A model generated the notes under the pieces. It did no database searches. It saw nothing but the letters and a program-made list of their open reading frames with translations, and had not been told where the DNA came from. Below, piece by piece: positions 924 to 27,746 of a stretch of 33,295 nt of DNA. The DNA is from Planktothrix serta PCC 8927 (GTDB lineage: Bacteria; Cyanobacteriota; Cyanobacteriia; Cyanobacteriales; Microcoleaceae): contig NZ_LR734880.1 in NCBI RefSeq assembly GCF_900010725.2, forward strand, positions 1 to 33,295, given 5' to 3'. The stretch's first letter is position 1; every line of letters starts with the position of its first letter. Position numbers and translations under genes: made by a program.

Positions 924-2270
924 ATGTCTAAATACGACTCCCATCTAAAATGTTCTTTCTGTGGCAAATCCCAGGAGCAAGTTCGCAAGTTAATTGCAGG
1001 GCCAGGAGTCTATATCTGCGATGAATGCGTTGAACTCTGTAATGAAATTTTGGATGAGGAGTTATTTGACAATAGTTCCACCACTCCACCCTCTCCGTCC
1101 TCTCGTCCCCAAGCAGCCCCACCCCCCCAACGTCGTCAACGAACTGGACGAGTGGCTTTAAATCAAATCCCTAAACCGAGAGAAATTAAATCCTATCTGG
1201 ACTTACACGTTATTGGTCAAGATGAGGCAAAAAAAGTTCTCTCGGTTGCTGTTTATAACCATTACAAGCGATTGGGATTTTTGCAAACCAAAGGCACAGG
1301 ACGACCCACAGAAGATAATGTCGAGTTACAAAAATCCAATATTCTGTTAATTGGCCCCACCGGATGCGGGAAAACTCTATTGGCGGAAACCTTGGCTAAA
1401 ATGCTGGATGTTCCCTTTGCGGTCGCTGATGCCACCACTTTAACGGAAGCGGGCTATGTGGGGGAAGATGTGGAAAATATTCTGTTGCGGTTGTTACAGG
1501 TTTCCGATTTTGATGTCGAAGAAGCGCAACGGGGTATTGTTTATATTGATGAAATTGATAAAATTGCCCGCAAAAGTGAAAATCCTTCCATCACCCGCGA
1601 TGTATCGGGAGAAGGGGTACAACAAGCTTTACTGAAAATGTTAGAGGGCACGATTGCTAATGTCCCACCCCAAGGCGGACGCAAACATCCCTATCAAGAT
1701 TGTATTCAAATCGATACCAGTAATATTCTATTCGTTTGTGGGGGGGCTTTTGTCGGGTTAGATAAATTGGTAGATCAGAGAATCGGCAAAAAGTCAATGG
1801 GTTTTGTTCAGCCGGGAGAAGGTCAACCGAAAGATAAACGCACCGTTGATGCTCTCAAACAGATGGAACCGGATGATTTGGTCAAATTTGGCTTAATTCC
1901 TGAATTGATCGGTCGGATTCCGATGATAGCGGTCTTAGAACCCTTAGATGAAGCTACCTTGGTGGCTATTTTAACTGAGCCCCGCAATGCGTTAGTGAAA
2001 CAATATCAAAAACTATTACGGATGGATAATGTCCAGTTAGAATTTGATGAGGATGCCATTCTAGCGATCGCTCAAGAAGCCTATCGTCGCAAAACAGGCG
2101 CAAGAGCACTACGCGGAATTGTCGAAGAATTAATGTTAGATGTCATGTATGAAATTCCCTCGCGTAAAGATGTCAAACGCTGTCGGGTGACGCGGGAAAT
2201 GGTAGAAAAACGATCAACAGCAGAATTATTATTACATCCCTCTTCTTTACCAAAACCAGAATCAGCGTAA
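924..2270 (+). CDS. clpX: ATP-dependent Clp protease ATPase subunit ClpX
   Basis: This is the AAA+ unfoldase that recognises tagged or unfolded substrates and threads them into ClpP. Domains in order: an N-terminal C4 zinc-binding domain (Cys10, Cys13, Cys32, Cys35), a Pro-rich linker at about 52-72, Walker A GPTGCGKT at 144-151, the GYVG pore loop at 177-180, Walker B with DEID at 209-212 and sensor 2 GARALR at 392-397. The ClpP-docking loop reads Met-Gly-Phe at 292-294 where E. coli has Ile-Gly-Phe. The length of 448 aa is normal for a cyanobacterial ClpX. It starts 12 bases after the clpP stop and is probably co-transcribed with it. Heptamer repeats with hairpin potential follow the stop codon. 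Confidence 0.97.
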
Positions 2271-2341
2271 TCAGTTATCAGTTATCAGTTATCAGTTATC
2301 AGTGTAAGAGTTATGCACTAAAAACTAAAAACTGATAACTG
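2271..2341. repeat. Heptamer tandem repeat TCAGTTA with inverted copy
   Basis: Four full TCAGTTA units plus a partial fifth occupy 2271-2303, directly after the clpX stop codon. An inverted copy, ACTGATAACTG, sits at 2331-2341 and can pair with the array. This is the familiar cyanobacterial short tandem repeat. The possible hairpin could act as a weak terminator for clpPX, but no U-tract follows. Confidence 0.85.
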
Positions 2342-2369
2342 AATCGATCATTTCATTGACAAATTTATC

Positions 2370-3731
2370 ATGATATTAAACCTATTAAATTCAGCGCATC
2401 TAAGATTTAGACCCTTTCAATTCAAACTCAAAAAAATTATCCCTGTTTTCATTAGTCTATTGACCTTATTGAGTATTTTAGGGCTAGGACAATTTCAAGT
2501 TTTCGGACAACAACAAAATAATATTACGATTGATTTTGCGGCGCAAAGAACTGGAATCAGTTCCGCTAGTGGGTTTTTATATGGTAAAAATGCCACCCAA
2601 CCCCCCGATAATATGATTAAGCCCTTACAACCTAAATTGTGGCGTACCTCACAATTAGATTTGTATCCACGAGTCATTGGATTGGGTGCACAATTTCAAT
2701 TAATTTTAAGTGATACCTGGGGCTATGGTGCTCCCAGAGGATGGCCCTATGATAATTATGCTAAATGGGAAGAACACGTTCGACAAATTGCCCGACAACA
2801 CAAAGATAAAGTTATATTATGGGATGTTTGGAACGAACCCGACTTAAGAGATCCCTTTTGGAAAGGCACAAGAGAACAATTTTTTGAAACCTATAAACGA
2901 GCTTACCAAGTATTACGTCAAGAATTAGGCCCTAATGTGATGATTGGTGGCCCCAGTATTGCCAAATATGATCAAAACTTTCTGATCGCATTTTTAAATT
3001 ATTGCAAAAATAATAATTTAGAAGTTAATTTTTTATCTTGGCATGAACTCAATGATCAAGATATTACTTCAATTGCTGCCCATATTAATAATGCCCGTCG
3101 CAGTTTACAACAAAACCCTAACTACCAAAGTTTAAAAATTCAGAAAATTTATGTCAATGAAATTATTGGCCCTACGGCTCAATATCGTCCGGCGGAAAAT
3201 TTAGGCTTCCTTTATTATACAGAATTAGGACGGGCGGATGGGGCGGCAAAAGCCTGTTGGGAGCCGTTAAATCCAGGCAGTGGAACTAACAATTGCTTTA
3301 ATAATAGTTTAGATGGTTTAGTAACACCCGATCAATCTTTACCCAGAGCCGCTTGGTGGGTATATAAAGCTTATGCAGATGGGTTTAGTTCACGAGTTAC
3401 CAGTCAACCCGGTAACCCTAAAATTGTTGCCCTAGCGAGTCGTTCTAATAGTGAACAAAAGGCTCAGGTTTTGTTCGGTTATTTTGAACAAGCATTTTCT
3501 GCACCCACCGCAGGAGTAACATTAATCCTGAAAAATTTACAACAACTGAAATTACCCAATACCAGTGGAAATTTAACGTTAAAAGTGGAAAGAATTCCTG
3601 ATTCTGGAGAACAAGTGATTAAACAATTAGTTACAGTAAGACAGGATAATATTGCCGTCAGTAATGAAGTGGTGCGGTTAACAATTCCTAATCTTCAACT
3701 TCACGAAGCCTATATCCTAACAATTAGCTAA
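2370..3731 (+). CDS. Secreted clan-A glycoside hydrolase (GH39/cellulase-like)
   Basis: This is probably an exported polysaccharide-degrading or trimming enzyme. A basic N-terminus and a hydrophobic stretch (about 23-45) ending near FGQQQ form a signal peptide or anchor. The rest reads as a (beta/alpha)8 clan-A hydrolase: VILWDVWNEPD at 148-158 puts the likely acid/base Glu156 after beta-strand 4, and IYVNEI at 260-265 gives Glu264 as candidate nucleophile. A SWHEL segment lies between them. A C-terminal stretch of about 100 residues looks like a beta-sandwich accessory domain. The substrate cannot be told from sequence. It stands alone, 99 bases after clpX, but lies close to the polysaccharide region starting at 5 kb, so a role in surface glycan turnover is possible (inference). 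Confidence 0.75.
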   Translation: MILNLLNSAHLRFRPFQFKLKKIIPVFISLLTLLSILGLGQFQVFGQQQNNITIDFAAQRTGISSASGFLYGKNATQPPDNMIKPLQPKLWRTSQLDLYPRVIGLGAQFQLILSDTWGYGAPRGWPYDNYAKWEEHVRQIARQHKDKVILWDVWNEPDLRDPFWKGTREQFFETYKRAYQVLRQELGPNVMIGGPSIAKYDQNFLIAFLNYCKNNNLEVNFLSWHELNDQDITSIAAHINNARRSLQQNPNYQSLKIQKIYVNEIIGPTAQYRPAENLGFLYYTELGRADGAAKACWEPLNPGSGTNNCFNNSLDGLVTPDQSLPRAAWWVYKAYADGFSSRVTSQPGNPKIVALASRSNSEQKAQVLFGYFEQAFSAPTAGVTLILKNLQQLKLPNTSGNLTLKVERIPDSGEQVIKQLVTVRQDNIAVSNEVVRLTIPNLQLHEAYILTIS

Positions 3732-3743
3732 CTTAAACAGAAA

Positions 3744-3777
3744 TTCTAGGGGTACAGGTGTACGCCTAACCCTAGAA
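3744..3777 (+). terminator. Possible hairpin terminator after the glycoside hydrolase
   Basis: TTCTAGGG at 3744-3751 pairs with CCCTAGAA at 3770-3777, with a further GTAC/GTAC pairing possible in the loop. It begins 12 bases after the stop codon. Only a short, imperfect T-rich stretch follows, so efficiency is uncertain. Confidence 0.5.
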
Positions 3778-3887
3778 AGTTTACCTCTTAATAGCAATTT
3801 CTAGCTTAACCTTGAACTTTTTAGTGGCAAATCAGTCATTAACTGAAGAACCGATTAAAATCAGAGATAACTTTCCCAGGTACTTTT

Positions 3888-4427: not shown

Positions 4428-5072
4428 ATGATGAAAACGACAACGTACATTTATTTACATGGGTTTGCATCAAGCCCTTCTTCAACAAAAGCTCAATATT
4501 TGCGCGATCGCTTTGCATCCCTTCAGATTAATTTAAACATTCCTAATTTGAATCAAGGAGATTTTTCCCATTTAACCTTAACTCGACAACTCCAACAAAT
4601 TGAAACCGAATTTTCTCCAAATGCTTCTCCGGTTGTGGTGATCGGGTCAAGTTTTGGGGGATTAACAGCGGCTTGGTTGGCTGAAAAAAAGTTTCCCATT
4701 GATCGGTTAATTTTACTAGCTCCCGCTTTTAATTTTTCATCAGAATGGTTGCTCAAATTAGGCCCTGAAAAATTAAAACAATGGCAATCTGAAGGATATT
4801 TATCTGTTTATCATTATGCAGAAAAACAGAATTTACCCTTGCATTATCAATTTTTAGAAGATTTATATCAATACCCTGATCAACAGTTACAGCGTCAAAT
4901 TCCGACATTAATTATACATGGAATTCAGGATGAAGTTATCCCCATCCAAGCCAGCCGAAACTATGCAGCAACAAGACCTTGGGTAAAATTAATTGAACTG
5001 AATAGTGATCATAGTTTGGATAATGTTTTAGGTGAAATTTGGCAAGAAATTCAGGGGTTTTTAGAACCCTGA
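4428..5072 (+). CDS. YqiA/UPF0227-like alpha/beta-hydrolase (esterase)
   Basis: This is a small alpha/beta-hydrolase of 214 aa. It shows the oxyanion-hole motif YLHGFASSPSS near residues 9-19 (the HGF-SSP pattern of the YqiA family), the nucleophile elbow GSSFGG at 73-78 with Ser75, an acid at Asp168 in HGIQDEV and His195 in NSDHS, so the triad is complete. YqiA is an esterase with activity on short acyl and palmitoyl esters; the natural substrate here is unknown. An AGGGA-like ribosome site lies shortly upstream, and there are two adjacent ATG codons, either of which could be used. The gene ends head-to-head with the minus-strand polysaccharide block: its stop touches the stop of the next gene at 5073. 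Confidence 0.8.
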   Translation: MMKTTTYIYLHGFASSPSSTKAQYLRDRFASLQINLNIPNLNQGDFSHLTLTRQLQQIETEFSPNASPVVVIGSSFGGLTAAWLAEKKFPIDRLILLAPAFNFSSEWLLKLGPEKLKQWQSEGYLSVYHYAEKQNLPLHYQFLEDLYQYPDQQLQRQIPTLIIHGIQDEVIPIQASRNYAATRPWVKLIELNSDHSLDNVLGEIWQEIQGFLEP

Positions 5073-5978
5073 TTAAAATTTGTTTTTGAGTTTTTTAATA
5101 AATTTTTGAACAGGATTTTGAACGGGTTGAGAGGACGGGAAAATGTCGGGCTTTGGTTCATGTAAATATCGATAATATTCCCAAATATCCCAATAGGGAC
5201 ATCCGGGTTGAATGCGAATTCCAGCCCAATGGAGGTATTGCAGGGGTTGATTAACGTTTGTGTCAATTAAACGATATCCATCCCGTTGAAAATGTTGGCT
5301 TCCGGCCCAATTTCCTGGCCCTTTATTTTCTCCTAAAACCAGATTAAATCGCTGTTTAATCCGCTTTAAAATCATATAATTAATGATCGGTTGGTCTGAG
5401 GTTTTTTGGGAAAAATCAAAATATTCTGGGTGGGCGGCACATTCAGCAAAGGTTTCATATAAATCCTGTTCTGAAATTAGGTTTTTCTTAGAAGCCCACC
5501 AGCCCCCATTAAACATACCTTTTAATTCTTCTGGGCTAAATACATTGTAAATTTCAGGTGTAAAAACGTTAGTTAATCCGCCAGCGTGTTGATAGTCACA
5601 ACAGAGAAAATCATACTTTGAAAAATAATTAAGATTGTCAATTATTTTTTCAAAAACAACAATATCAGTGTCAATATATAAGAATTCATCAAACGGCCCA
5701 AACCAGCAAGCTTGCTTGCGAAATTGATTGGGACGAGCAAAGAATTTTTCTCCGAAAATCTGTTGAAGTTTGATAGATAGTCGTTCAATAAATTCTAAAT
5801 CTTCATAGACTTGTACTCCATAATCCTGTTTTAGACGAGCAGCAATTTTTTGATAAGAATTATCATAAGGAATTAGAACAACGCTCGTCTCGCCATCGTA
5901 AGTTCGGATACTATTGAGTAAAGCGATCGCCTGATCTGTGAATTTATCGTTAGCAGTAATATAAATCCCGCGAGTCAT
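5073..5978 (-). CDS. GT-A fold glycosyltransferase-like protein
   Basis: This is probably a nucleotide-sugar-dependent glycosyltransferase. The N-terminus (GIYITANDKFTDQAIALLNS) looks like the first strand and helix of GT8-type enzymes, and a DTD metal-binding motif appears at 103-105 after FDEFLYID. A GGWWAS segment near 158-163 and an aromatic-rich end (HWAGIRIQPGCPYW) recall cyanobacterial polysaccharide-cluster proteins; no experimentally studied relative comes to mind. The protein is 301 aa with no membrane segment. It is the last gene of the minus-strand run, 42 bases after the GT10 gene, and probably shares its transcript. Acceptor and donor sugars are unknown. Confidence 0.7.
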   Translation of the reverse strand: MTRGIYITANDKFTDQAIALLNSIRTYDGETSVVLIPYDNSYQKIAARLKQDYGVQVYEDLEFIERLSIKLQQIFGEKFFARPNQFRKQACWFGPFDEFLYIDTDIVVFEKIIDNLNYFSKYDFLCCDYQHAGGLTNVFTPEIYNVFSPEELKGMFNGGWWASKKNLISEQDLYETFAECAAHPEYFDFSQKTSDQPIINYMILKRIKQRFNLVLGENKGPGNWAGSQHFQRDGYRLIDTNVNQPLQYLHWAGIRIQPGCPYWDIWEYYRYLHEPKPDIFPSSQPVQNPVQKFIKKLKNKF

Positions 5979-24156: not shown

Positions 24157-24418
24157 CTTGTTTTTGTTTTCCATACAAATAGTGATCATGCTGATGAGCT
24201 AAATCTCTGATACCCGTATCTACAGCATTTTGATTTAACGCCAACTCTAACGTATCCCAACCCGCTTCATACTCCTCAGAAGAAATATCAACTAATTGCT
24301 CCTGTTTTTCTGATTCTAAAAAAGTAATAATCACAGGATAGTTATCAGGATAAGATATCGGTTGAATGGGATAAATTACCCCATTTCTGACAATTCCTTT
24401 AATAGATTCCATAAGCAT
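24149..24418 (-). CDS. Antitoxin-like protein (AF2212/DUF104-type) of the broken PIN pair
   Basis: This is an 89-aa protein. The N-terminus, MESIKGIVRNGVIYPIQPI, resembles the short beta-hairpin start of AF2212-like antitoxins (family feature: K-G-x-V-x-N-G-x-I-x-P). The C-terminus is acidic then His/Tyr-rich. It lies upstream of and overlaps a truncated PIN-toxin reading frame, so it is probably an orphan antitoxin. A second ATG two codons in (24412) could be the start. Whether it still counteracts toxins made elsewhere in the genome is an open question. Confidence 0.75.
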   Translation of the reverse strand: MLMESIKGIVRNGVIYPIQPISYPDNYPVIITFLESEKQEQLVDISSEEYEAGWDTLELALNQNAVDTGIRDLAHQHDHYLYGKQKQDE

Positions 24419-24494: not shown

Positions 24495-27400
24495 ATGAAT
24501 GAACCTCAATTTTCTAGTATTAGCGATCGCCTTCCTCCTCAAAACATAGAAGCAGAGGAAGCAATTTTAGGCGGTATTCTCCTCGATCCAGAAGCCATTA
24601 GTCGGGTAGCAGAATTATTACAACCAGAATCCTTTGCCCTCAAATCCCATCAAATTATTTATCGGGCAACTTTAACCCTACATTTTCAAGGAAAACCCAC
24701 CGATTTAATGACCGTTACCACTTGGTTAGCGGATCAAAAATTACTCGAACAAGTGGGAGGACAATTAAAATTAACTCAACTCGTAGATCGGACGGTTTCG
24801 GCGGTTAATATTGATCAATATGGCTTATTAATTTTAGATAAAAAAATCCGTCGCAGTTTGATTACTGGGGGACACACTATTATTGAATTAGCTTATGATA
24901 CCAGCCAAGATTTAGAAACGGTTCTCGATAAAGCCGAACAACAAATCTTTAATATTTCTCAAGTTCGACCCCAACAGGATTTAGTTTCTATTGGAGAAAC
25001 CTTAATTGATACCTTCCAAGAAATTGAAGACCGCAATGAAGGAATTTCTTTACCCGGTATTCCTTGCGGATTTTATGATTTAGACGCGATGACAGGAGGG
25101 TTTCAACGGTCGGATTTAATTATTATTGCGGGTAGGCCGTCAATGGGAAAATGTTTAAGTTTTGATAGTACAATTGTTTTATCGGATGGGAGTGTTGTCA
25201 CGATTGAAGATATTTATAATCGTCAAAAAGCTCAAATTTTAACGTTAGAAAATAATTGGAAATTTAAAATTACTGAACCTTCTGACTTTATTGATGATGG
25301 AATTAAACCCGTATTTAGAGTTACTACAAAACTAGGGAGGTTTGTAGAATCTACCCTCACCCATCCGTTTTTAACGATTCAAGGATGGAAGCAGTTAGCA
25401 GAACTTAAACTAGGGCAAAAAATAGCGGTTCCTCGCAAAGTGGATGTTTTTGGATCTGAAAAAATATCAGAATGTCAGGCTAAGATTTTAGGTTATTTAA
25501 TAGGAGATGGCGGACTGACAGATAGCAATGCTGTTTTGACAAATAATGATTGTAGAATTCAACAAGATTTCATTAATGCTGTCAAGGATTTTGATACTAA
25601 CCTTAAAGTTAGAATCGATAACTCGCACGGAACTCGCGCGGACTCCTTGAATGTTACCAAAAACCAGCAATTAGTAATCGATAACAGACAATCTTTTGCC
25701 AAAACACTACGCCAAACAGTTCAAATCAAAGGAATATCTGGCTCTGAAATTGCTCAGGATTTAGGGGTTTCTCCCTCTGCTGTAAGCCACTGGATGAATG
25801 GTAAATCCGCTCCTAATTCGGAATTCTTTAAGCAGTTGTGTGACTTGCTAGATATCGACACCACTGTTCTTGCACCTGACGGAGCAGAAACAATTCAAAT
25901 AAATAACAGGAATTCATTAGTAATCTGGCTGGAAAAATTGGGATTATGGGGAAAGAATTCTCATCAAAAAACAATTCCTGAAATCATCTTTAGATTAGAG
26001 CGATCACAAATTGCTTTATTTCTAAACCGTCTATTTGCAACAGATGGTTGGGCGACGGTTTTAGCTAGTAGTCAATCACAGATCGGTTATACCAGTGTCA
26101 GTGAAGAATTAGCCCGACAAGTTCAACATTTGTTATTGCGATTTGGGATTATTGCAACACTGAAAAAGCGTTCTGTTAAATATAAAGAAACCAGGCGAAC
26201 GGCTTGGCAACTGGATATTACCGATGCTTTATCTCTTAAAACCTTTATCTCAGAAATTGGGATTTTTAGTAAAGAAGAAGCACTTTTAAAAATAGAAAAT
26301 GCGTTAATGAATAAACGCTATCAAACCAATCGAGATTTGATTCCCATAGAAATTTGGCAAGAAATCGCAACGGTTAAAGGTGATGAATCTTGGCAAAATT
26401 TAGCAAAACGCGCAGGGATTCCAGGCTATAGTAATATTCATGTTGGTAAACGGCAACCATCACGGGAAAGACTCTGGACTTTAGCCACTGCTTTAGATAA
26501 TTTACCCTTACAACAGTTAGCAACCAGTGAGATTTATTGGGATGAAATTGTCTCAATTGAATTTATGGGGGAAAAACAGGTTTATGACTTAACCATTCCT
26601 GAAACCCATAATTTTGTTGCAAATGATATCTGCGTTCATAATACCAGTTTTGCTGTGGGTTTAGGACATAATATTGCTAAGGGTCAAAAGTTACCTATTG
26701 CTATTTTTAGTTTAGAAATGTCCAAAGGACAATTAGTGCAAAGACTATTATCTAGTGAAGCGAAAATTGAAAGTAACCGCATTCGTTCAGGACGCATTAG
26801 TCAATCGGAATGGGAACCCTTAACAATGGCGATTAGTTCCTTAGCGGAATTACCTATTTTTATTGATGATACCCCGAATATTACCGTCACAGAAATGCGT
26901 TCTAAAGCTCGAAGATTGCAAGCGGAAAATGGGGGGGTATTGGGGTTAGTTTTAATTGATTATTTACAATTAATGGAGGGAGGAAGTGATAATCGAGTGC
27001 AGGAATTATCGAGAATTACCCGATCATTAAAAGGATTAGCGAGAGAATTAAGTGTACCTGTAATTGCCTTATCCCAGTTAAGTCGAAGCGTTGAATCTCG
27101 TACAAATAAACGCCCCATGTTATCAGATTTAAGGGAATCTGGTTGTTTAACAGGTGATAGCTTAATCACATTAGCAGACACAGGATTACAAGTACCCATT
27201 AAAGAATTAATAGGTAAATCTGGTTTTCCTGTTTGGGCATTAAATGAAAAAATAATGAAGCTAGAAATAGCAATTGTGAGTAATGCCTTTTCTACAGGTA
27301 TAAAACCTGTATTTACCTTAACAACTCGACTAGGAAGAAAAATTAGAGCAACAGCTAATCACAAATTCCTGACAATTCAGGGTTGGAAAAGACTGGATGA

Positions 27401-27746
27401 GTTAAGTTTTAAACAACATATCTGTTTACCAGATAACAGTGATGTATATTGGGATGAAATAGTTTCAATTATACCTGATGGAGAAGAAGAAGTATTTGAT
27501 TTAACAGTTCCTAACTTGCATAATTTTGTAGCAAATAACATCATTGTTCATAATTCAATTGAACAAGATGCGGATTTAGTTATGATGATCTATCGAGATG
27601 ACTATTATAATCCTGATACTCCAGACCGAGGAATTACAGAAATTATTATGGCTAAACATCGTAACGGCCCTACAGGAACGATTAAACTCTTATTTGACCC
27701 TCAATTTACCAAATTCAGAAATTTAGCGAATCCTCGGTCTAGTTAA
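24495..27746 (+). CDS. dnaB: Replicative DNA helicase DnaB carrying two inteins
   Basis: The reading frame is 1083 aa, of which 449 belong to the helicase and the rest to two in-frame inteins. The extein shows the N-terminal DnaB domain (about 11-115, starting LPPQNIEAEEAILGGIL) and the RecA-like motor. Walker A GRPSMGK at 213-219 is interrupted directly after its Lys by intein 1 (220-716) and resumes with TSFAVGLGHNIAK; Walker B is LVLIDYLQLM at 818-827; the LSQLSRSVE motif at 859-867 is followed by SDLRESG, where intein 2 (884-1020) enters, and the C-terminal SIEQDADLVMMIYRDDYYN follows. Without both splicing events the ATPase site is split and the helicase cannot work. Joined, the extein has normal DnaB length. 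DnaB unwinds DNA at the replication fork as a hexamer. Confidence 0.97.
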   Translation: MNEPQFSSISDRLPPQNIEAEEAILGGILLDPEAISRVAELLQPESFALKSHQIIYRATLTLHFQGKPTDLMTVTTWLADQKLLEQVGGQLKLTQLVDRTVSAVNIDQYGLLILDKKIRRSLITGGHTIIELAYDTSQDLETVLDKAEQQIFNISQVRPQQDLVSIGETLIDTFQEIEDRNEGISLPGIPCGFYDLDAMTGGFQRSDLIIIAGRPSMGKCLSFDSTIVLSDGSVVTIEDIYNRQKAQILTLENNWKFKITEPSDFIDDGIKPVFRVTTKLGRFVESTLTHPFLTIQGWKQLAELKLGQKIAVPRKVDVFGSEKISECQAKILGYLIGDGGLTDSNAVLTNNDCRIQQDFINAVKDFDTNLKVRIDNSHGTRADSLNVTKNQQLVIDNRQSFAKTLRQTVQIKGISGSEIAQDLGVSPSAVSHWMNGKSAPNSEFFKQLCDLLDIDTTVLAPDGAETIQINNRNSLVIWLEKLGLWGKNSHQKTIPEIIFRLERSQIALFLNRLFATDGWATVLASSQSQIGYTSVSEELARQVQHLLLRFGIIATLKKRSVKYKETRRTAWQLDITDALSLKTFISEIGIFSKEEALLKIENALMNKRYQTNRDLIPIEIWQEIATVKGDESWQNLAKRAGIPGYSNIHVGKRQPSRERLWTLATALDNLPLQQLATSEIYWDEIVSIEFMGEKQVYDLTIPETHNFVANDICVHNTSFAVGLGHNIAKGQKLPIAIFSLEMSKGQLVQRLLSSEAKIESNRIRSGRISQSEWEPLTMAISSLAELPIFIDDTPNITVTEMRSKARRLQAENGGVLGLVLIDYLQLMEGGSDNRVQELSRITRSLKGLARELSVPVIALSQLSRSVESRTNKRPMLSDLRESGCLTGDSLITLADTGLQVPIKELIGKSGFPVWALNEKIMKLEIAIVSNAFSTGIKPVFTLTTRLGRKIRATANHKFLTIQGWKRLDELSFKQHICLPDNSDVYWDEIVSIIPDGEEEVFDLTVPNLHNFVANNIIVHNSIEQDADLVMMIYRDDYYNPDTPDRGITEIIMAKHRNGPTGTIKLLFDPQFTKFRNLANPRSS
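25152..26642 (+). other. Intein 1 in DnaB Walker A, with LAGLIDADG endonuclease and HTH-like segments
   Basis: This large intein is 497 aa (ORF residues 220-716). Splicing motifs are complete: Cys220 first residue (CLSFDSTIVLSDG), block B with TLTH at 287-290, and a final VHN with Asn716, followed by Thr717 as the +1 extein nucleophile. The endonuclease carries two LAGLIDADG-type motifs: LGYLIGDGG at 332-340 and LFATDGW at 513-519. Between them, at about 405-460, lies a segment like an XRE/Cro helix-turn-helix (SGSEIAQDLGVSPSAVSHWM), and at about 625-672 a second HTH-like segment (SWQNLAKRAGIPGYSNIHVG). HTH modules are known as DNA-contacting regions of some homing endonucleases. Both endonuclease acids look present (Asp of IGDGG and ATDG), so homing activity is possible. 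Confidence 0.93.
27144..27554 (+). other. Intein 2 in DnaB: natural mini-intein without endonuclease
   Basis: This is a 137-aa intein (ORF residues 884-1020) between SDLRESG and SIEQD, the same site as the known Synechocystis DnaB intein, to which the start CLTGDSLITLADTG and end DLTVPNLHNFVANNIIVHN are very close. Cys884, the block B motif TANH at 953-956, the penultimate His1019 and Asn1020, and Ser+1 are all present, so it should splice. It has no LAGLIDADG motif and no room for one: after LDELSFKQHICLPDNS it goes directly to DVYWDEIVSI. It is close in sequence to the terminal parts of intein 1, for example YWDEIVSI and GIKPVF are shared. Confidence 0.95.

Follow-up and report, generated by a model that had tools for sequence, protein, structure and literature searches.

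The dnaB gene in the window analysed here (the whole stretch of 33,295 nucleotides, positions 1 to 33,295 of contig NZ_LR734880.1 from Planktothrix serta PCC 8927) contains two inteins, and we conclude, with a probability of about 0.82, that it is an ordinary chromosomal dnaB whose two inteins were not derived from each other here. Intein 1 belongs to a lineage tied to the P-loop (GK/T) and intein 2 to a separate lineage tied to site A (SDLRESG/S); in our model, each spreads from genome to genome through homing and recombination and later decays. Intein 1 would have traded its endonuclease core with that of a diverged allele and retained its own splicing ends, and intein 2 would recently have shed its endonuclease. 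The precursor would then splice twice, using Cys1 as nucleophile, a TxxH block, a terminal His-Asn pair, and Thr or Ser at position +1, to give a 449-amino-acid (aa) helicase.

The two inteins interrupt a single DnaB frame of 1083 aa that starts with ATG and has no internal stop (Table 1). The DnaB model TIGR00665 covers frame residues 13-1078 (E value 1.2e-193), and the middle extein has a single match in its own genome at E<=1e-40. Pfam Intein_splicing matches both intein 1 (E 2.7e-25) and intein 2 (1.7e-37), as do NCBIfam intein_Nterm and intein_Cterm, and with both inteins removed the exteins join as 219 + 167 + 63 = 449 aa. An earlier note on this DNA had placed two inteins with exact boundaries in one 1083-codon dnaB, one of them inside the Walker A motif directly after the Lys of GRPSMGK; open reading frame (ORF) reading, the Pfam and NCBIfam models, and the position of the insertion all agree with this. 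The note had also named a sequencing error as a threat to the continuity of the frame. Such an error is unlikely because a second genome (G289) has an uninterrupted dnaB frame of equal length, with inteins of 496 and 137 aa filling the identical two sites.

Class-1 inteins have Cys or Ser at position 1, a TxxH block B, a terminal His-Asn, and Ser, Thr, or Cys at +1. Intein 1 carries C1, T68-L-T-H71, H496-N497, and Thr+1, and intein 2 carries C1, T-A-N-H, H136-N137, and Ser+1. In the class-3 P-loop intein of mycobacterial DnaB, the nucleophile at position 1 is missing; intein 1, with its Cys1, falls outside class 3 as judged by this definition and not by comparison with the mycobacterial sequence itself. 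Cys1 was found in all P-loop rows counted in our overlapping sets (80/80 in the survey, 51/51 and 27/27 among named loci, and 8/8 in the genus). Splicing of both inteins is a prediction, as is cutting of the empty GK/T allele by intein 1. As intein 1 sits inside Walker A, full helicase activity should await both splicing events.

The earlier note had further proposed, from the similarity of their ends, that one intein seeded the other site. The resemblance is real (43% identity over 108 aa at the N end and 56% over 54 aa at the C end) and the shared words are present, but such words are not confined to this pair. FWDEIV also occurs in a DnaE intein of this genome, which over its last 42 residues is 62% identical to intein 2, the same value as for intein 1; for the last 42 residues of intein 1, 28 other site-A inteins out of 54 are at least as close as its neighbour. 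We built a tree of the splicing domains (first 95 and last 42 residues, 137 columns) of 157 inteins, three of them outgroups from the same genome, after dropping four rows (the long-branch P-loop row G327 and the long outgroups GyrB2, DnaX, and DnaE2). One group gathers the P-loop inteins (79 rows, support 93) and another those of a further site, B (21 rows, support 100), and the main site-A group holds 50 of 54 rows. Intein 1, whose insertion point directly follows the Lys of Walker A, falls with the inteins of its own site, and intein 2, inserted at SDLRESG/S, lies among site-A kin from other genomes. This tree had been set beforehand as the check on a site jump, and it speaks against one, since each of the window's inteins groups with same-site inteins of other genomes.

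Forcing the window's two inteins to pair in the tree costs 116.7 log-likelihood units (approximately unbiased (AU) test, p 0.0029). Moreover, across 25 doubly occupied genomes, P-loop and site-A inteins from one genome are as alike as pairs drawn across genomes (0.428 vs. 0.425; 777 of 5000 permutations as high). The likeness between the window's P-loop intein and its own site-A intein does rank 3 of 54 (tied) over all columns and 8 of 80 (tied) in a companion comparison, somewhat above the median. Together with the 43-56% identity of the splicing ends and the shared words, this rank is what a recent jump in this lineage can call on; set against the grouping by site, the AU test, the permutation, and the presence of the C-end words in a DnaE intein of the same genome, such a jump is highly improbable. 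On the site-wise tree, the AU test, and the pair permutation, we therefore rejected both a site jump and a recent conversion of one site by the other. Some features of the tree weigh against a clean division by site: four site-A rows (G101, G064, G019, and G036) fall outside the main group, only 137 columns were available, 80 of 150 inner branches are open, and the support of 93 for the P-loop group lies under the 95 mark. The two site lineages may still share a deep common ancestor, well before this genus.

To follow intein 1, we compared it with a sister species, an uncultured Oscillatoriales bin (L163, = G395) whose exteins are 98% identical to the window's. Divergence is uneven along intein 1. 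Silent divergence (dS) from the sister is 0.65-1.9 in the core; at the two intein ends it is 0.17-0.31, and across the exteins 0.20-0.26. The raised tract is bounded, with limits near codons 61-100 and 367. The ratio of replacement to silent divergence (dN/dS) in the core is about 0.05-0.3, fitting a constrained endonuclease. The endonuclease core thus seems to have been swapped inside a resident intein that kept its splicing ends, and the case for this exchange is strong when the sister is the reference and moderate for the genus as a whole.

The genus comparison took in the window and nine other genomes, in which both sites are filled in 8/10, the P-loop only in 1/10, and site A only in 1/10. 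The P-loop and site-A inteins measure 497 and 137 aa in the window; the other pairs (P-loop/site A) are 426/141, 485/empty, 374/141, 374/141, 495/429, empty/141, 426/present (frame disturbed just behind), 374/137, and 374/429. Only the window and the sister keep the helix-turn-helix and both LAGLIDADG motifs among these ten genomes, and the segment between the motifs is missing or replaced in 7/9 of the P-loop-bearing ones. Compared with two of the genomes (G388 and G389), the ends of intein 1 are closer (dS 0.06-0.12) than the exteins (0.25-0.51), which we read as movement of P-loop inteins within the genus, beside the core exchange.

Several observations weigh against an exchange of the core. 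Over codons 80-150, dS between the window and eight other genomes is 0.69-1.29, yet it is 0-0.74 among those others, so that the ranges overlap (56-71 codons compared). The middle extein itself spans a silent divergence of 0.13-0.71 within the genus, and exteins must therefore recombine too. None of the P-loop inteins compared qualified as donor of the core, the best match outside the sister being 60% identical. The core might instead simply diverge faster than the ends, under fast or relaxed evolution and with no exchange at all; the lack of a donor, the overlap of the window's core with the range of other genus members, and the frequent loss or replacement of the inter-motif segment would all fit this. 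However, against the sister, silent sites are raised as well, and within definite limits, and the core's dN/dS stays low. We regard fast evolution as an unlikely account of the tract, and exchange as the better one.

Intein 1 itself carries a LAGLIDADG endonuclease. Pfam LAGLIDADG_3 (2.4e-23) and HTH_3 (5.2e-14) match intein 1 only, and its two acidic motifs, LIGDGG (D119) and ATDGW (D298), go together with a fold match: a structure model (41 sequences; mean predicted local distance difference test score, pLDDT, 92.5; predicted template modelling score, pTM, 0.89) has intein endonucleases as its best matches, for example 7qss (E 2e-20). With both motifs and the added helix-turn-helix kept, intein 1 is probably still mobile. 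Among 79 surveyed P-loop inteins, the helix-turn-helix was judged by length alone to be present in 40 (>=490 aa) and absent in the 39 shorter ones; mapped on the 79-row P-loop splicing-domain tree, this label takes 20 changes, at least five of them forced by well-supported branches.

Intein 2 lacks an endonuclease. The sister's site-A intein is 429 aa long, includes one, and matches intein 2 at 99% identity across the 96 residues that both have; relative to it, 292 codons (876 base pairs, bp) are missing from intein 2 in frame. The dS of intein 2 from the sister is 0.08, and its endonuclease would have been lost recently; the dS test on intein 2 (p 0.009) relied on approximate site counts. In an alignment of 15 site-A inteins the deletion junctions differ among close kin, and mini-inteins thus arose several times. 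Within one genus, an essential gene has intein sites that are empty or full and inteins that are apparently core-swapped, decayed, or endonuclease-free. With these stages of the intein life cycle standing side by side, gain, exchange, and loss become datable by reference to near-identical exteins.

Relatives of intein 2 also reside in phages. In the DnaB of Planktothrix phage PaV-LD, site A is filled by an intein of 141 aa that shares 84% identity with intein 2. Two IMG/VR contigs (L314 and L315) have 429-aa site-A inteins whose first 96 residues match intein 2 at 91% identity; one more contig (L316), left unparsed, has the same 91% identity. The P-loops of these phage helicases are empty and their exteins are 75-76% identical to the window's. 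Three phage rows, the window, and the sister group together inside the family (5 rows, support 100). It is plausible that phages captured the gene from hosts and that the intein returned by recombination, which would make phage helicases possible intein carriers. The last 100 bp of the middle extein are 80-84% identical to nine genomes of family f6, compared with 71-75% to three genomes of the window's own family, a pattern that is no more than suggestive of co-conversion around intein 2.

P-loop inteins of this kind extend beyond cyanobacteria. Among the best 80 loci of a larger P-loop alignment scan, an intein of 476-512 aa was read in 78, leaving out one locus that begins inside the intein (L227) and one shortened by the parser (L236). 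Ten further phyla are present among these 80 (Melainabacteria, Pseudomonadota, Verrucomicrobiota, Actinomycetota, Chloroflexota, Planctomycetota, Thermodesulfobacteriota, Acidobacteriota, Gemmatimonadota, and Myxococcota), with Desulfonema magnum and Rubrobacter marinus among the named isolates. Outside Cyanobacteriota, 27 loci could be read; their inteins share 48-58% identity with the window's and their exteins 37-53%, so that the intein is closer in 26 and equal in one (L217). At cyanobacterial loci, the extein is closer in 51/51 (some exteins in this comparison are partial). This points to transfer of the P-loop intein between phyla. Many of the named loci are metagenome bins, in which binning errors are possible, and at phylum level there is little disagreement between the P-loop intein tree and the extein tree (12 vs. 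11 changes); both weigh against transfer, and inter-phylum movement therefore rests on the identity comparison. As a source of intein 1, phages gave 28 matches among 50,697 records and plasmids 5 among 72,556, none spanning 80% of the query, and viral contigs gave 70 loci, the best by E value being 33-36% identical, with higher identity only in weaker-match segments. Phages and plasmids were rejected as the source because these matches are distant only.

To place the double occupation, we surveyed 388 genomes of the class. Intein 1 matches at least 110 of them at E<=1e-20 (a count that takes in site-A endonucleases), intein 2 at least 110 at E<=1e-12 (a count that takes in P-loop inteins), and the middle extein at least 374. 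We parsed 118 dnaB loci that looked occupied (117 genomes, G253 twice) together with the window, and found the P-loop alone filled in 41, P-loop and site A in 26, P-loop and site B in 13, site A alone in 28, and site B alone in 8; three loci (G260, G091, and G004) were left unresolved by the parser. Of the 119 dnaB genes parsed, most of them occupied, 39 thus have two inteins, which puts double occupation in at least 39 of 388 genomes. The earlier note had held double occupation to be seldom described; beside these counts, occupation of the same two motifs has been published for Mycobacterium smegmatis (PMC6195587). None of the papers listed in a literature search treats a doubly occupied cyanobacterial DnaB, from which we make no claim of absence from print. 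Site B (SDLRE/SG) lies two residues upstream of site A, and no parsed gene has both filled. It constitutes a further DnaB intein site, seen at 21 loci (e.g., L051, L058, and L145) whose inteins form one well-separated clade. One locus (L127, G240), counted among the 28 with site A alone, has a broken site-A intein with its N and C parts in different frames, which could be a broken gene, an assembly error, or a natural split. Another (L120, G327) has a P-loop intein unlike the others (337 aa, ending VTHN, on a very long branch), perhaps a second type at this site.

Known systems resemble the window's DnaB in part. The DnaB inteins of Synechocystis PCC 6803 (Ssp) and Nostoc punctiforme (Npu), which we take to occupy site A, match intein 2 over its full length (1mi8, 6frh, and 4o1r; 4o1r at 3.1e-69); intein 2 is a natural mini-intein with an endonuclease deletion of its own. 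TliVMA (7qss) and PI-PfuI (1dq3) share with intein 1 the Hint and two-motif LAGLIDADG fold and are among its best fold matches, but at only 14-17% identity and in other hosts and sites. Haloferax mediterranei MCM is likewise a replicative helicase gene with two inteins, but it is archaeal and both of its endonucleases are active (PMC10643990). A similar layout is that of M. smegmatis DnaB, with DnaBi1 at the P-loop (site b) and DnaBi2 at the H4 motif, a DNA-binding loop (site a), one with and one without an endonuclease (PMC6195587). In that helicase, DnaBi1 is a class-3 mini-intein and DnaBi2 has the endonuclease; in the window, the P-loop intein has Cys1, class-1 features, and an endonuclease, and the site-A intein is the mini-intein.

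In M. smegmatis DnaB, a disulfide involving the catalytic Cys gates the P-loop intein (PMC6195587). In the window, a cysteine (Cys494) lies four residues before the end of intein 1, and Cys occupies this position in 145 of 147 distinct P-loop inteins, the exceptions being G327, a different intein, and G083, compared with 0/76 site-A and 0/21 site-B inteins. Both inteins might thus have been domesticated as a double switch in which slow or redox-gated splicing of Walker A controls replication, an idea that this near-invariance and the mycobacterial gate would favour. However, within the genus the P-loop intein is missing from one genome and the site-A intein from another; neither intein is thus needed in every member, and we consider such a switch improbable. 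A more speculative proposal, built on the mycobacterial precedent and in our judgement doubtful, is that P-loop DnaB inteins of this lineage form a redox gate on replication across many phyla. A reversible Cys1-Cys494 disulfide would hold Walker A broken under oxidative stress, unlike the class-3 route of mycobacteria, and the endonuclease core would be a cassette exchanged between alleles while the gate is kept. Intein 1 provides a second Walker A intein on which such ideas can be tested, one bearing a marked extra cysteine.

Table 1. Coordinates of dnaB, its inteins, and related features (window positions unless another locus is given).
Feature	Sequence	Coordinates	Strand	Details
dnaB frame with both inteins	window	24495..27746	+	1083 aa; ORF reading and DnaB model match
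Extein N	window	24495..25151	+	219 aa; terminates GRPSMGK (Walker A through its Lys)
Intein 1 (P-loop site)	window	25152..26642	+	497 aa; C1 ... HN, then Thr; P group in tree
Apparent mosaic tract of intein 1	window	25332..26249	+	codons 61-366; raised silent divergence from sister; weaker genus-wide support
First LAGLIDADG helix and motif (ILGYLIGDGGLT)	window	25470..25520	+	residues 107-123, acidic D119; alignments; model helix H107-119
Inserted helix-turn-helix domain	window	25665..25871	+	residues about 172-240; HTH_3 best stretch 193-239; model helices
Second LAGLIDADG helix and motif (FLNRLFATDGW)	window	26001..26051	+	residues 284-300, acidic D298; LAGLIDADG_3 286-370
Cys494	window	26631..26633	+	four residues before intein 1 end; alignment position, residue counts
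Extein middle	window	26643..27143	+	167 aa; TSFAVG ... SDLRESG
Intein 2 (site A, SDLRESG/S)	window	27144..27554	+	137-aa mini-intein without endonuclease; next residue Ser
Deletion junction in intein 2	window	27429..27436	+	292 endonuclease codons of sister missing in frame (876 bp)
Extein C	window	27555..27743	+	63 aa; SIEQD ...
LAGLIDADG frame between split DnaE halves	L388 (G392)	1806-2591	-	Pfam 4.9e-11
LAGLIDADG frame between split DnaE halves	L395 (G123)	2987-3793	+	Pfam 2.3e-11

The neighbourhood of dnaB looks chromosomal. The gene is flanked by clpP, clpX, and ribosomal protein L9 upstream and by porphobilinogen deaminase downstream, as seen in a scan that took in 20 further ORFs of the window, which has 29 of >=100 aa in all. 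Likeness to the sister ends at window position 24411, 84 bp before the dnaB start, and continues on the downstream side, indicating an upstream rearrangement or insertion.

The genome holds eight inteins in five genes: two each in DnaB, DnaE, and GyrB and one each in DnaX and ThyX (the last three genes in L160, L161, and L162, with gene names and the GyrB2 start assigned by inspecting translations). Its DnaE (G000:C50; L159:1847-6622) is a continuous 1591-aa frame with two inteins, one of which (137 aa, 4898-5308) lies unsplit at AEY/CFNKS, presumably the position at which the split DnaE intein of cyanobacteria is inserted. A search of 145 genomes gave matches in 59, and of these the window's genome alone has a single match over positions 1-137 of this intein. 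Within the genus, DnaE is also continuous in G391 and split in G388, G389, G392, and G396, and 4/10 genomes have no match at E<=1e-6. The split halves adjoin on one strand in two genomes, with a LAGLIDADG frame of 262-269 aa between them (Table 1); this looks like a mobile split-intein arrangement and may bear on how the split DnaE intein originated. At a further locus (L399, G024), the frame between the split halves encodes a Uma2-type protein.

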